Shown here in pieces: positions 9,666 to 30,447 of a stretch of DNA of 64,000 bases. Origin of the DNA: Streptococcaceae bacterium ESL0687 (GTDB lineage Bacteria; Bacillota; Bacilli; Lactobacillales; Streptococcaceae); contig CP113940.1 of the NCBI GenBank assembly GCA_029392475.1, positions 248,001 to 312,000 of the forward strand. Reading direction: 5' to 3'. Positions within the stretch are counted from its first letter, which is position 1, and each line of letters opens with the position of its first letter. The position numbers were made by a program, and so were the translations under genes. The notes below the pieces were generated by a model that was not told the origin of the DNA, did not search any database, and saw only the letters and a program-made list of their open reading frames with translations.

Positions 9666-9674
9666 TAATAGATG

Positions 9675-9701
9675 AAAAGACAGGGAAACCTGTCTTTTTT
9701 T
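9675..9701 (+). terminator. Terminator after pgi
   Basis: AAAAGACAGG and CCTGTCTTTT flank a GAAA tetraloop, followed by a T-run. Confidence 0.92.
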
Positions 9702-9736
9702 GATGCCAAAAATTTTTGCTATTTTCATTTTATCCA

Positions 9737-9812
9737 CTTTAAGAAAACTTAAAGTTTTGGTTAAGGAACCTTAAAGTTTGATGTAAGCTTTGAGCAAGCT
9801 TTGTCCTATAAA
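9737..9812 (+). promoter_or_regulatory. Six tandem 11-bp repeats abutting a -10 box (VTC operon promoter)
   Basis: Six consecutive 11-bp units start at 9737, 9748, 9759, 9770, 9781 and 9792. Columns 5-7 read AAG in every unit; examples are CTTTAAGAAAA, CTTAAAGTTTT and CTTAAAGTTTG. The last unit ends four bases before a -10 TATAAA (9807-9812), so the repeats occupy the -35 region and no normal -35 is seen. Direct repeats at one helical turn are typical of OmpR/PhoB-type response regulators, which suggests an activator-dependent promoter. The identity of the regulator is an inference. Confidence 0.7.
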
Positions 9813-9840
9813 ATAAAAGCAAGTCAAGGAGGAAAATATT

Positions 9841-10608
9841 ATGAAATTAAAAAATGTTTTTCAAAGGAGAGAAGTGAAATATACCATGACCTTTGAACAA
9901 TATAAAAAGTTAAGGGAGGCAGTCGAGGGTTTACTAACAGAGGACCAATACGGGCTTCATACAATTTACTCCCTTTACTATGATACTGATGACTATGCAA
10001 TGATAAAAAAATCAATTGAAAGACCAGAATATAAGGAAAAATTTAGGGTTAGAAGCTACGGCAAACCTAAAATAGATGGAGATGTCTACCTTGAAATAAA
10101 AAAGAAGGTTTTGGGGGTGGTTTATAAAAGAAGGGTGGCCAGTAATTACGGCGGCCTATCTCTAGAGCATATTGCCTCAAACCTTGAAAGAAATTGTAGC
10201 GATTCAAGTAATTCAAACAATCAAATAGCTAATGAAATAACCTACCTTTTCAGTAACCTTACCTTAAAGCCAAAGGTCCTAATAGCCTATGACAGGAGGG
10301 CTTTGTTTTCACCAGAGGATGAAGATTTCAGGGTAACCTTTGATTTTAATATCAGATATGATTTAGACTCATTAGACTTTGAGGATGAGGATATGACTCC
10401 TCTAAGTCCAGAGGTTGATGTACTGATGGAGGTTAAAAGCCTGGGTAGCTATCCGATGTGGTTTAGCAGGGCCCTAAGTGAACTTGGAATCTTTAAGGCC
10501 AGCTATTCGAAATATGCAAATGTATATAAAAAAATTATTTATCCCTTAGAAAAAAATAGAAAATTTGATGAAAAATTAGAAGAGATAGGAGAAAAAGCTT
10601 ATGCTTAG
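9841..10608 (+). CDS. Polyphosphate polymerase (VTC) domain protein
   Basis: This 255-residue protein is made almost entirely of a VTC-type CYTH-like tunnel fold. It has a basic and acidic set of motifs: FQRREVKYTM (7-16), YYDTDD (46-51), KFRVRSYG (67-74), YLEIKKK (83-89), YKRR (95-98) and a late DVLMEVKSLG. In yeast Vtc4 such residues bind polyphosphate and metal and make polyphosphate from ATP; in bacteria the activity is mostly unproven. It is cytosolic, with no signal or membrane segment. Its last bases overlap the DUF4956 gene by 8 nt. A GGAGG precedes the ATG. Confidence 0.88.
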   Translation: MKLKNVFQRREVKYTMTFEQYKKLREAVEGLLTEDQYGLHTIYSLYYDTDDYAMIKKSIERPEYKEKFRVRSYGKPKIDGDVYLEIKKKVLGVVYKRRVASNYGGLSLEHIASNLERNCSDSSNSNNQIANEITYLFSNLTLKPKVLIAYDRRALFSPEDEDFRVTFDFNIRYDLDSLDFEDEDMTPLSPEVDVLMEVKSLGSYPMWFSRALSELGIFKASYSKYANVYKKIIYPLEKNRKFDEKLEEIGEKAYA

Positions 10609-11236
10609 CACACTAACTGGAGTAGGGGTTGCCCTAGTCCTAGGACTACTTATTGCCCTGGTACATACTTATAGGAATGTATACAGTAAAAATTTTGTTA
10701 TTACACTGGTAACTCTTCCGGTTCTGGTTCAACTGGTTATCATGCTTGTTAACGGGAACTTAGGAACAGGGGTTGCTGTTATGGGAGCCTTCTCACTCGT
10801 CCGCTTTAGATCAATTGCTGGTGGGGCGCGTGAAATTACAAGTATCTTTTGGTCAATGGCTATCGGTCTAGCAGTAGGTACAGGAGCCTACCTTGAAGCA
10901 GCAGTATTTTCACTAGTAACAGCACTTATAATTATTACCCTAAATACAATTAAATTTGGGGAAAATAACAAAACAGTTGAACGGACCCTTAAAATCACTA
11001 TAGCTGAAGATTTAGATTTTCCAGGTCTCTTTGATGACATTTTAGATAAATATGCCTATCAAGTTGAAATGGACTCAGTAAAAACAACAAATATGGGAAG
11101 TCTGTATGAGCTTAGATATAATGTTAAGCTAAAAGATTCTCAAGACGAAAAGAAATTAATTGACGATATTAGAGTACGTAATGGAAACCTACCAGTAAGT
11201 CTTGGTAGATTAGCACAAAATAGCGAGGTATTATAA
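10601..11236 (+). CDS. DUF4956 membrane protein
   Basis: This 211-residue protein has about four hydrophobic segments in its first 125 residues. They include LVLGLLIALVHTY, FVITLVTLPVLVQLVIMLV and a glycine-rich loop with GAFSLVRFRSIAGGARE, the DUF4956 signature. A soluble, probably cytosolic domain of about 85 residues follows. DUF4956 proteins regularly occur beside VTC-domain genes; their role is unknown. It overlaps the VTC gene, and its stop is directly followed by the next ATG, so the genes are probably co-translated. Transport or membrane anchoring for the VTC partner is an inference. Confidence 0.88.
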   Translation: MLSTLTGVGVALVLGLLIALVHTYRNVYSKNFVITLVTLPVLVQLVIMLVNGNLGTGVAVMGAFSLVRFRSIAGGAREITSIFWSMAIGLAVGTGAYLEAAVFSLVTALIIITLNTIKFGENNKTVERTLKITIAEDLDFPGLFDDILDKYAYQVEMDSVKTTNMGSLYELRYNVKLKDSQDEKKLIDDIRVRNGNLPVSLGRLAQNSEVL

Positions 11237-12739
11237 ATGAAGACAAAAACAAATGCAGGTAAGATCAGAAACTTTATTCTATTAGCAAGTACATCCCTTC
11301 TTCTTGCAGCATGTTCAAGTAAGGCTGCTACAAGTTCACAGACAACGACAACAAGCAGCACATCAACTGTCCAAACTGTTGCAACATCAACTACAGTTGA
11401 CGAGACTAATGCAACAACCATTGACCTATCAAAGGAAAGTGGTTCAACCGTTGAAATTACAAAGGCCGGTACCTATATTTTAACTGGGGAATACAAGGGA
11501 CAGATTCATATAAATGCCAAGGATGAAGAAGTGGTAATTATCCTTAAGAATGCAAAAATTACCTCTGATTCAGGCCCAGCCATCTATTCTGAAGCAGCTA
11601 AAAACACAGTAGTAAGCCTTCAAGGGGAAAATAGTCTGACTGACTCAAGTAATTATCCAACTGGTGACAGTGCCCCTAATGCCACCCTTTATGCAAAAAA
11701 TGATTTGGTACTTACAGGAGACGGAAGCCTAAGTGTTAAGTCTAACTACAAGGCAGCTGTTCGTAGTAAGGATATCTTGACCATTGAAAGTGGTACCTAC
11801 TCAATTGAAAGTACAACAGACGCCCTAAAAGCAACAGACCAAATCCTTGTTCTAGGTGGTAAGATTGACATTAAGTCAGGAAGTGACGGACTTCAAGCAA
11901 CAAGTACTAAAGACGGTAAGGGAATCATCACAGTTAAAGGCGGAGAACTTAATATCTCAGCAGAGAAAAAAGGTCTTAAGGCTGGTAAGGTTCTAAATAT
12001 TGAAGGTGGAACAATTAATGTAACCAAATCTTATGAAGGATTTGAAGCTGAGGTAATTAACATTAAAGGTGGTAAGAACTCAATTGTAGCTTCTGATGAC
12101 GGAATCAATGCATCAAGTTCAACTACCTCTTCATCAAAAAATAAAAATACTAATTCAAGTTCTTCAAGTAAATCTAGTGATACCCAAATGAATCAAGGCG
12201 GCCCAAGTGGTGATATGGGTCAAGGTGGACCTGGTCAAGGCGGTGGCCAAATGGGTGGTATGCCTGGTGGTCAAGAGGAAGCCGATGAAAATCTAATTGT
12301 AAATATTACAGGTGGAGAAACAGTAATCAAGGCAAGTGGTGATGGAATTGACAGTAATGGTAATGTTAACATGTCAGACGGTGTTGTCTACGTAGAACAA
12401 CATGGTGACGGAGATGCCCCTCTTGATTTCGACGGAAAATTTGTTCAAACTGGTGGAACTTTAGTAGCCATGGGTTCAGCAAGTATGGCCCAAACAACTC
12501 AAGGAGACCAAGCAGGATTTGCCCTTTATAAGGAAGCATCTGGTCAAATTACCATTGAAGATGGTAAGGAAACTTTAACTTATACTCCAAGTAACTCATA
12601 TGCCTTCCTCTTTGTTTCAACACCTAATATGTCTAAGGGTGGAACAATTAAGGTTAACGGAGAAAGCTATGACCTTACAGATACAATAACTACAAGTGGT
12701 GAGGCAAGTAATCAAATGCAAGGCGGAAGACCCTTCTAA
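11237..12739 (+). CDS. Carbohydrate-binding (DUF4353-like) surface lipoprotein
   Basis: This 500-residue secreted protein has a lipoprotein signal peptide with lipobox LAAC near residue 26. A Ser/Thr-rich linker follows, then a long repetitive beta-helix-like region (TYILTGEYKGQIHINAK, GGKIDIKSGSDGLQATS, GGELNISAEKKGLKAGK, GGTINVTKSYEGFEAE). This resembles the carbohydrate-binding DUF4353 family found with CotH/VTC genes. A low-complexity Ser/Lys then Gly/Met/Gln insert lies at about residues 288-350. It is third in the VTC operon. The ligand is unknown. Confidence 0.8.
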   Translation: MKTKTNAGKIRNFILLASTSLLLAACSSKAATSSQTTTTSSTSTVQTVATSTTVDETNATTIDLSKESGSTVEITKAGTYILTGEYKGQIHINAKDEEVVIILKNAKITSDSGPAIYSEAAKNTVVSLQGENSLTDSSNYPTGDSAPNATLYAKNDLVLTGDGSLSVKSNYKAAVRSKDILTIESGTYSIESTTDALKATDQILVLGGKIDIKSGSDGLQATSTKDGKGIITVKGGELNISAEKKGLKAGKVLNIEGGTINVTKSYEGFEAEVINIKGGKNSIVASDDGINASSSTTSSSKNKNTNSSSSSKSSDTQMNQGGPSGDMGQGGPGQGGGQMGGMPGGQEEADENLIVNITGGETVIKASGDGIDSNGNVNMSDGVVYVEQHGDGDAPLDFDGKFVQTGGTLVAMGSASMAQTTQGDQAGFALYKEASGQITIEDGKETLTYTPSNSYAFLFVSTPNMSKGGTIKVNGESYDLTDTITTSGEASNQMQGGRPF

Positions 12740-12788: not shown

Positions 12789-13775
12789 ATGAAAACAACA
12801 AGAAAAAAATCAAGTCTTTTAAAGAAAATATCAGTCACCCTAGCTGGACTTCTAACACTAGCAGTCCTTGGGGTATATACCTTCTTTAAAACAGACGTTT
12901 TTGCAGACACAAGAGACTTATGGGTTCAAACTGCCATGAGTACAAGTAGTCACAAGTGGCTTGCAACATCATTTTTAAGTGATGACGAGATAAATAAGAT
13001 ACTGGCCAAATATCAGGTTACTAATGATACTAAATCAGACAGCTCAACTATAAATCTATCAACAAGTTCAACTTCATCAACCAGTGATAGCTCAAATACT
13101 TCAATCAAGGAAATAAGTGGTTCTACTTATAAAGGATATGTTGTAACCATTAAAGATCCTTCAACTGTTAAGCTTGTAAATACCCTAACCTCAACTGGTG
13201 GAGGGACCAAACTATCTGAAACAGTTAAGGATGAAGGTTATCAAATTGCCCTTAATGCAGCAGGTTTTAACTTTGACAGGAAGACTGAATCAACTGGGGA
13301 GAATGCCCTTGATTCCCTAACTATTATGGACGGAAAACTCCTTTACGGGGACGAGGATGAAAGTTACCAGATGATTGGAATGACTTCAGAAGGTAAGCTT
13401 GTCCTTGGTAATTATACCTATAGTGAAGCCATCAAGGCTGGAATCACTGATGCTATCTCCTTTGGACCATATCTTTTGGTCAACGGAGAAGATCAGGTTA
13501 CTGAAAAATCAACAGGAGGACTCCAACCTAGAACAGCTATTGGTCAGGCAAGTGACGGGACTATCTTCTTTGTAGTCATTGAAGGAAGATCATCATCAAG
13601 TGCCGGTGCTACTCTTTATGACCTCCAAGAGGTTATGAAGGACTTGGGTGCAGTTAATGCAACTAATCTAGACGGCGGTGGATCAAGTGAAATGTACTAT
13701 GATGGAAAACTAGTTAACCAATTAAGTAATGGAAGTGAAAGGGAGATACCTAATGCTTTCGTTGTAACCAAATAA
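12789..13775 (+). CDS. Phosphodiester glycosidase (NAGPA-domain) surface protein
   Basis: This 328-residue protein has an N-terminal membrane anchor or signal (about residues 15-34) and a Ser/Thr-rich spacer. The C-terminal NAGPA domain contains NAAGFNF, ISFGPYLLVNGE, PRTAIGQASDGTIFFVVIEG and the family hallmark NLDGGGSSEMYYDGK. The domain cleaves sugar-phosphate diesters in the lysosomal uncovering enzyme and is frequent on Gram-positive surfaces. Here it closes the VTC operon, 49 bases after the lipoprotein gene, and is followed by a terminator. Its target may be a phosphodiester-linked surface polymer, which is an inference. Confidence 0.85.
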   Translation: MKTTRKKSSLLKKISVTLAGLLTLAVLGVYTFFKTDVFADTRDLWVQTAMSTSSHKWLATSFLSDDEINKILAKYQVTNDTKSDSSTINLSTSSTSSTSDSSNTSIKEISGSTYKGYVVTIKDPSTVKLVNTLTSTGGGTKLSETVKDEGYQIALNAAGFNFDRKTESTGENALDSLTIMDGKLLYGDEDESYQMIGMTSEGKLVLGNYTYSEAIKAGITDAISFGPYLLVNGEDQVTEKSTGGLQPRTAIGQASDGTIFFVVIEGRSSSSAGATLYDLQEVMKDLGAVNATNLDGGGSSEMYYDGKLVNQLSNGSEREIPNAFVVTK

Positions 13776-30094: not shown

Positions 30095-30441
30095 GGGGTC
30101 GTTACGGATTCGACGGGTATTATTGAGCATGAAGGGCAACTAGGTGGCAAACCTTAACCTGCAAACTTAAATTAATTGCTAACAATAGTAATTCATACGC
30201 TGTAGCTGCCTAAAAACCAGCACACGTGGACTAGCTTTCACTCGCCCATGGTGAATTTTAGTCCTCAAAATTAGTGGGATACACTTAAAGGTTGTCTAGC
30301 CCTTTGAGGAGAAGAATATAGACTCGTTAAATTCCCAGTTGAGCTATGTCTGTGGATTTAATCAAATTAATGCATAGCCTATGGTTGTAGAACTTTGTGT
30401 AGCAAGATATTCGGACGTGGGTTCGACTCCCACCGGCTCCA
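30095..30441 (+). ncRNA. ssrA: Transfer-messenger RNA (tmRNA)
   Basis: tmRNA rescues stalled ribosomes and tags the nascent protein. The 5' end GGGGTCG pairs with CGGCTCC (30434-30440) to form the tRNA-like acceptor stem. ACGGATTCGACGGG and GGACGTGGGTTCGACTCCCACC are the conserved D-like and T-arm parts. The encoded tag runs 30178-30210 as ANNSNSYAVAA and ends at TAA 30211-30213. The 3' CCA is not encoded: the discriminator A at 30441 is followed by TAA. The tag resembles the streptococcal AKNTNSYALAA. Confidence 0.97.
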
Positions 30442-30447
30442 TAAAAT

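Follow-up and report, generated by a model that had tools for sequence, protein, structure and literature searches.

Which regulator reads the phased repeats that lie in front of a VTC-domain gene in Streptococcaceae bacterium ESL0687? The question arises in a window of 64,000 nucleotides (CP113940.1, positions 248,001 to 312,000; the window is this whole stretch, and coordinates without a prefix refer to it), where the array sits between pgi and the VTC-domain gene. Positions 9737-9802 consist of six 11-bp units, all of which carry AAG at columns 5-7; the 10-mer CTTAAAGTTT is common to units 2 and 4, and a TATAAA (9807-9812) begins four bases past the array end. All this had been described in a first-pass annotation and was confirmed from the sequence. 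The same holds for the lack of an ordinary -35, as a consensus scan gave no sigma-70-type promoter with a -35 at the array position. The surrounding features are as follows.

9674-9703, plus strand: hairpin and T run after pgi, likely an intrinsic terminator (sequence reading; the scan gives the same stem on the minus strand only)
9841-10608, plus strand: VTC domain protein, 255 aa (Pfam PF09359, 6.2e-37)
10601-11236, plus strand: DUF4956 protein, 211 aa (Pfam PF16316)
11237-12739, plus strand: Cthe_2159 carbohydrate-binding domain protein, 500 aa (Pfam PF14262; PDB 4peu, 3.3e-26)
12789-13775, plus strand: phosphodiester glycosidase (NAGPA) domain protein, 328 aa, last of the gene run (Pfam PF09992)

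Because a likely terminator follows pgi, the VTC operon probably needs a promoter of its own. The gene run is followed by an asparaginase gene. Its products would fit an envelope role; judged by eye, the Cthe_2159-domain protein has a lipoprotein-like N-terminal start. In the PDB, the VTC protein matched Vtc3 and Vtc4 weakly (E 0.15 and 0.18), and we therefore claim no catalysis for it.

The array is far beyond chance. Other in-phase 11-bp AAG runs in the window reach at most three units on either strand, and on its plus strand other trinucleotides, at periods 5-25, peak at five units. With zero mismatches, a four-unit phased AAG pattern found the array alone in the 1.47-Mb genome (three overlapping matches); with one mismatch allowed, 46 matches were obtained versus 15 for the reversed control. 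Tandem Repeats Finder reported 9739-9787 as a 22-bp repeat.

The first-pass annotation had proposed that the direct repeats suit an activator of the OmpR/PhoB class in place of a -35. This was borne out, and the geometry is that of CiaR. Promoters of streptococcal csRNA genes have been predicted with TTTAAG-N5-TTTAAG, ten bases and TATAAT, allowing up to two mismatches, and the revised CiaR consensus is given as NTTAAG-N5-TTTAAG, N10, TATAAT, often with a C before the start (PMC3091779). For pneumococcal CiaR promoters, the start is reported at N22 after the second box (PMC6560143). Read by these rules, the array becomes TTTAAG-N5-TTAAAG-N5-GTTAAG-N5-TTAAAG-N5-TGTAAG-N5-AGCAAG, followed by N10 and TAAAAT.

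9738-9743, plus strand: unit 1, TTTAAG, a 6/6 match to the CiaR hexamer
9749-9754, plus strand: unit 2, TTAAAG
9760-9765, plus strand: unit 3, GTTAAG
9771-9776, plus strand: unit 4, TTAAAG
9782-9787, plus strand: unit 5, TGTAAG
9793-9798, plus strand: unit 6, AGCAAG, a degenerate promoter-proximal box with a 3/6 match
9809-9814, plus strand: -10 TAAAAT, exactly N10 from unit 6 (CiaR spacing rule, PMC3091779), overlapping TATAAA
9821, plus strand: predicted transcription start, N22 past the last box, with C at 9820 (from PMC6560143 and PMC3091779)
9826-9832, plus strand: ribosome binding site AAGGAGG (sequence reading)

The array thus has the same hexamer, 11-bp period, N10, predicted start and preceding C as streptococcal CiaR promoters such as those of htrA-parB and the csRNA genes. 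Each of its six in-phase boxes, spaced by N5, matches TTTAAG at three to six of six positions, and ten bases separate unit 6 from a -10 that differs from TATAAT at no more than two positions (AGCAAG-N10-TAAAAT). As to the -10, the TATAAA named in the first-pass annotation is present, but the CiaR rule puts the element probably at the overlapping TAAAAT two bases downstream. It differs from the streptococcal promoters in its target, the VTC operon, and in box number: known CiaR sites have two boxes, and six had rightly been called unusually many. Moreover, the proximal boxes are weak and no pair is strict. The strict form, NTTAAG-N5-TTTAAG in which neither box may vary at the third T, second A or final G, is absent from the array, since every adjacent pair has the third T, reported as invariant, altered in one box; a strict two-box scan of the window's VTC upstream region had its best match elsewhere (5/17 mismatches, P 0.24). 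A change of TTTAAG to TGTAAG in the second box is reported to have left an S. agalactiae CiaR promoter unimpaired (PMC9603419), which bears on unit 5.

We scored phased TTTAAG-like boxes together with a -10 at N10, a score designed post hoc when the sequences had already been seen. The array reached 12, and the next best among 1849 candidate -10s of the window was 4; when the 250 bp upstream were dinucleotide-shuffled 1000 times, 12 was never reached (P 0.001). Taken with the evidence below, the array is very probably the activator site of a CiaR-dependent promoter.

Four regulators with an OmpR-type DNA-binding domain are encoded in the genome, and one of them is, on sequence grounds, a CiaR ortholog with CiaH beside it. 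This regulator (L012, encoded near 910 kb on the chromosome that also carries the window) has an adjacent CiaH-like kinase. Its recognition helix, VVEVYISKLRKKL versus VVEVYVSKVRKKL of S. pneumoniae CiaR, is the conserved one apart from one V to L change in addition to the V/I exchanges reported in PMC3091779. The helices of the three other regulators, one of which exceeds the cut-off of the YycF (WalR) model, differ from that of CiaR. Since none of the best 25 NCBIfam models listed fits L012 above its cut-off, CiaR was assigned by helix, adjacent kinase, kinds of target and a tree. In this tree of 34 regulators, 29 CiaR-like rows, selected by similarity, split from five paralogs, which form long branches (support 96/96). 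The own family contributes 13 CiaR rows, which group together (99/94), and L012 falls with the family's CiaR, not with the paralogs; five CiaR rows linked to VTC form no supported clade (40/86). A CiaH-like kinase match lies in the same locus for 29/29 CiaR-like regulators.

VTC was found in 37/118 genomes including our own, and upstream regions were analysed in 30 genomes, at one VTC copy per genome (the relatives' placement in families and orders is inferred). By the array score, 26/30 VTC upstream regions were significant at P<=0.05 and 23/30 at P<=0.01 against shuffles; L027, L028, L030 and L040 failed. With the strict two-box consensus, 20/30 passed at P<=0.05 (dinucleotide shuffles), our own promoter not among them; this count includes L031 and L036, whose regions were miscut at nearby contig ends. 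Near-strict box pairs occur in G072 (one mismatch) and in G084 and G104 (two each). Six boxes are present in each of the four genomes of the genus, as against two to four in the rest of the passing regions. Two-box sites in many species are near-perfect, whereas in the genus of the window poor boxes lie near the -10 and good ones behind. The first-pass annotation had made its reading depend on conservation, and phase, AAG core and unit number are indeed kept in two genomes of the same genus whose VTC proteins are 66-67% identical.

For 20 non-redundant regions (the 30 minus ten near-identical ones, removed by eye), hexamer and geometry were ranked separately, each with the other fixed. TTTAAG came first among 4096 hexamers at period 11 and N10, and period 11 with N10 came first among 408 geometries for TTTAAG (117 versus a mean of 23.8, sd 12.7). 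Among the upstream regions of 177 ORFs at 21 loci (longest ORFs, at least 200 aa), 19 scored at least 5; of these, 16 belong to VTC genes and three to genes that diverge from VTC, and the remaining 158 regions scored at most 4. Missing from the 19 are the VTC ORFs of L112, L115, L122, L125 and L129; in several of them the ORF start lies too far upstream, and two of the four array-score failures correspond to L122 and L129.

Some individual regions deserve mention. In L027 and L028 (G007 and G016), the VTC upstream region carries 11-bp phased repeats of a TTCAG type, not TTAAG; both genomes have CiaR orthologs (73-74%), and the repeats are possibly a drifted form of the motif. At L120:3472-3646 and L121:6757-6898, two CiaR-type arrays lie in the region between VTC and a divergent Cthe_2159 gene, one for each gene. 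G012 (78% complete) has VTC with a site, and its best CiaR match reaches only E 6.9e-42. When the VTC protein was run against further genome contigs, the only loci recovered were six from Paenibacillus and one from a Clostridiaceae MAG; these were not used.

CiaR-type promoters also occur elsewhere in the genome, at landmark targets that we chose afterwards by position and conservation. One precedes the gene of an HtrA-like protease, followed by parB, and the same site is present in 4/4 genomes of the genus and was also seen at htrA of G001. Another precedes the gene of a PrsA-like foldase, with a corresponding match in G003 only, among the matches listed. A third stands ahead of ciaR; good sites are also present there in G001 and G002, and none was found upstream of ciaR in G003. 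Altogether, 8/29 ciaR upstream regions have a site scoring at least 5. Genes resembling those of csRNAs are found at two places.

G000:C1 at about 175.78-176.66 kb (L166:1775-2665): four tandem csRNA-like genes between pgk and luxS
L164:2820-2945, minus strand: fifth csRNA-like gene, recurring in G001 and G002 (L192, L194)

The tandem copies are 205 to 288 bp apart (pgk was assigned by ORF reading, luxS by Pfam). Each has an array of three to four boxes, a TATACT and about 95 nt to a terminator hairpin, and the three of the four that were folded had z-scores of -4.1 to -4.2. They contain anti-Shine-Dalgarno stretches of the ACUCCU type. No Rfam match was obtained at gathering scores at the pgk-luxS locus (L056). 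G003 has two counterparts, and related genes lie at two other places in G001. The fifth gene reads TTTAAG-N5-TTTAAG-N10-TATACT, has its own terminator and lies ahead of a metallo-hydrolase gene. All five predicted genes agree with the definition of a csRNA as intergenic, with a CiaR promoter, 51-202 nt long and ending in an intrinsic terminator. The CiaR-type sites examined in this genome outside the VTC promoter have two to four boxes, in contrast to six at VTC.

Single two-box sites mean little, because across the genus the pattern is not commoner than its reversed control: the counts were 38 versus 29 in G000, 74 versus 96 in G001, 78 versus 108 in G002 and 30 versus 29 in G003, and a further count gave 29 versus 34. 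We therefore dropped an estimate of regulon size from this pattern. Three kinds of site are probably due to chance, although some of them recur in the genus: those with a single mismatch that fall within a permease gene (L160, L195) or within a long priA-looking ORF (L162), and a zero-mismatch site (L165) that leads into no gene on its strand.

The regulator genes themselves are linked to VTC outside the family. In five genomes of other families, a CiaR-CiaH pair adjoins the VTC cluster: divergently in G072, downstream in the same direction in G084, G090 and G104, and likewise in G093 after one extra gene. By coordinates, this is 5/10 of the order-level genomes with any VTC match; close linkage on one contig was seen in 0/27 VTC genomes of the own family, many of whose assemblies are fragmented. 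The ciaR genes downstream of VTC (L111-L114) have no upstream site scoring at least 5, which fits transcription from the VTC promoter, but the divergent ciaR of G072 lacks such a site too. The kinases of these clusters are just 36-39% identical to our CiaH. A plasmid from an Enterococcus faecalis isolate carries a similar cluster, with a two-box site before VTC and, upstream of an amidase gene, TTTAAG-N5-TTTAAG-N10-TATAGT.

L189, LR962858.1:50385-61080, reversed: VTC-DUF4956-CiaR-CiaH-CotH

Among 47 order-level genomes, with CiaR-like defined as a best match of at least 48% identity, strong VTC matches occur in 6/16 genomes with CiaR versus 1/31 without (Fisher P 0.004, kinship ignored). For all VTC matches, the figures are 7/16 versus 3/31 (P 0.02, kinship again ignored). 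CiaRH was reported as apparently confined to streptococci (PMC3091779), whereas we find orthologs also in other families of the order, some of them inside a VTC-DUF4956-Cthe_2159 or CotH cluster. A related gene neighbourhood has been described for Gram-positive pel clusters, which are adjoined by accessory genes for poly-phosphate polymerase (PPP), DUF4956, CotH and DUF4832 (PMC7112168). The window resembles these in combining a polymerase-type gene with DUF4956, and CotH is also present in the Enterococcus plasmid cluster; it differs in that genes for Cthe_2159 and NAGPA proteins come next, with pgi before and the asparaginase gene after. Literature searches outside subscription papers and supplements gave no link between CiaR and VTC genes among the papers listed. 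New here are the six boxes, the VTC operon as a probable target and the linkage of the regulator to its target operon in other families.

One may ask if another OmpR-family regulator of the cell, i.e. VicR/WalR L009, L010 or L011, binds the array instead. These are the three OmpR-type regulators that remain besides L012, and unit 5, TGTAAG, resembles a WalR half-site. Furthermore, G106 retains a canonical-looking site before VTC (L037, L115) without a CiaR ortholog, its best regulators being 37-40% identical; either another regulator reads the motif there, or the site has outlived its regulator. We also noted in G106 a different regulator and kinase 2-4 kb upstream of VTC, and the helix of that regulator differs. 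Against such a regulator in our genome stand the recognition helices of the three, which are unlike that of CiaR, and the rank of the WalR-type box hexamer, TGTAAT (78/4096). In addition, motif and geometry recur ahead of htrA-parB and the csRNA-like genes, which are known kinds of CiaR target, and the gene linkage of VTC in relatives is with CiaR. We consider this alternative improbable.

A regulator of the PhoP/PhoB class, binding the units as Pho-box-like repeats and tying the operon to phosphate supply, had been raised in the first-pass annotation. Direct repeats spaced by one turn are characteristic of that class, and the VTC domain is named after polyphosphate-polymerase relatives. Nonetheless, motif and spacing are those of CiaR: the Pho-type hexamer TTAACA ranks 378/4096, TTTAAG being first, and no Pho box is recognizable by this measure. 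The four OmpR-type regulators all stay below the TIGR02154 PhoB cut-off, and in relatives it is a CiaR-like regulator that is linked to VTC. Phosphate control is thus very improbable. That the units, A/T-rich, one helical turn apart and deviating from the strict CiaR consensus, act as a curved or UP-element-like upstream region without a dedicated regulator is scarcely credible, because different genera share both the G of AAG and the exact N10, and because no other hexamer ranks as high as TTTAAG at this geometry.

Returning to CiaR, we infer its binding, activation, cooperativity and physiological role from what was obtained here, namely the motif with its geometry and conservation, an ortholog of CiaR with nearly the known recognition helix, CiaR-type promoters ahead of known kinds of target, and gene linkage. 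CiaR phosphorylated by its kinase CiaH would occupy the 11-bp direct repeats in head-to-tail order along a single face of the helix. Unit 6, 10 bp ahead of the -10, would take the place of the -35, with the last CiaR subunit at the -35 contact position. CiaR would then recruit RNA polymerase, transcription would start near 9821, and VTC-DUF4956-Cthe_2159-NAGPA would be transcribed. As the proximal boxes are weak and the distal ones strong, the simplest reading is that cooperative occupancy would spread from the latter to the former. A six-box site may respond more steeply, or at a higher threshold, than a two-box site. The VTC operon would accordingly join htrA, the PrsA-like foldase and the csRNAs in the CiaR regulon, and not a phosphate regulon.

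A broader scenario is tentative, and we lean slightly against it. CiaRH may be older than the streptococci, an order-level system whose ancestral and still-linked partner would be an envelope module of VTC, DUF4956 and CotH or Cthe_2159. In streptococci and the present family, CiaRH would have left the operon and kept control at a distance. Box number (two to six) might then be an evolving dial, with distal boxes kept where proximal ones decay, and CiaR might act as a head-to-tail oligomer, not only as a dimer on two boxes.

In streptococci, CiaRH is reported to affect beta-lactam resistance, lysis, competence, biofilm and virulence (PMC8186281). A conserved link to one operon, with ciaRH beside that operon elsewhere, points to what CiaRH may have evolved to control. 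Conversely, bacterial VTC/DUF4956 genes gain a candidate context, a stress regulon, and arrays whose box number ranges from two to six lend themselves to studies of cooperative binding by an OmpR-family activator. As a minor observation, the only Rfam match in the window at gathering scores is a tmRNA gene (RF00023) at 30095-30444 on the plus strand.
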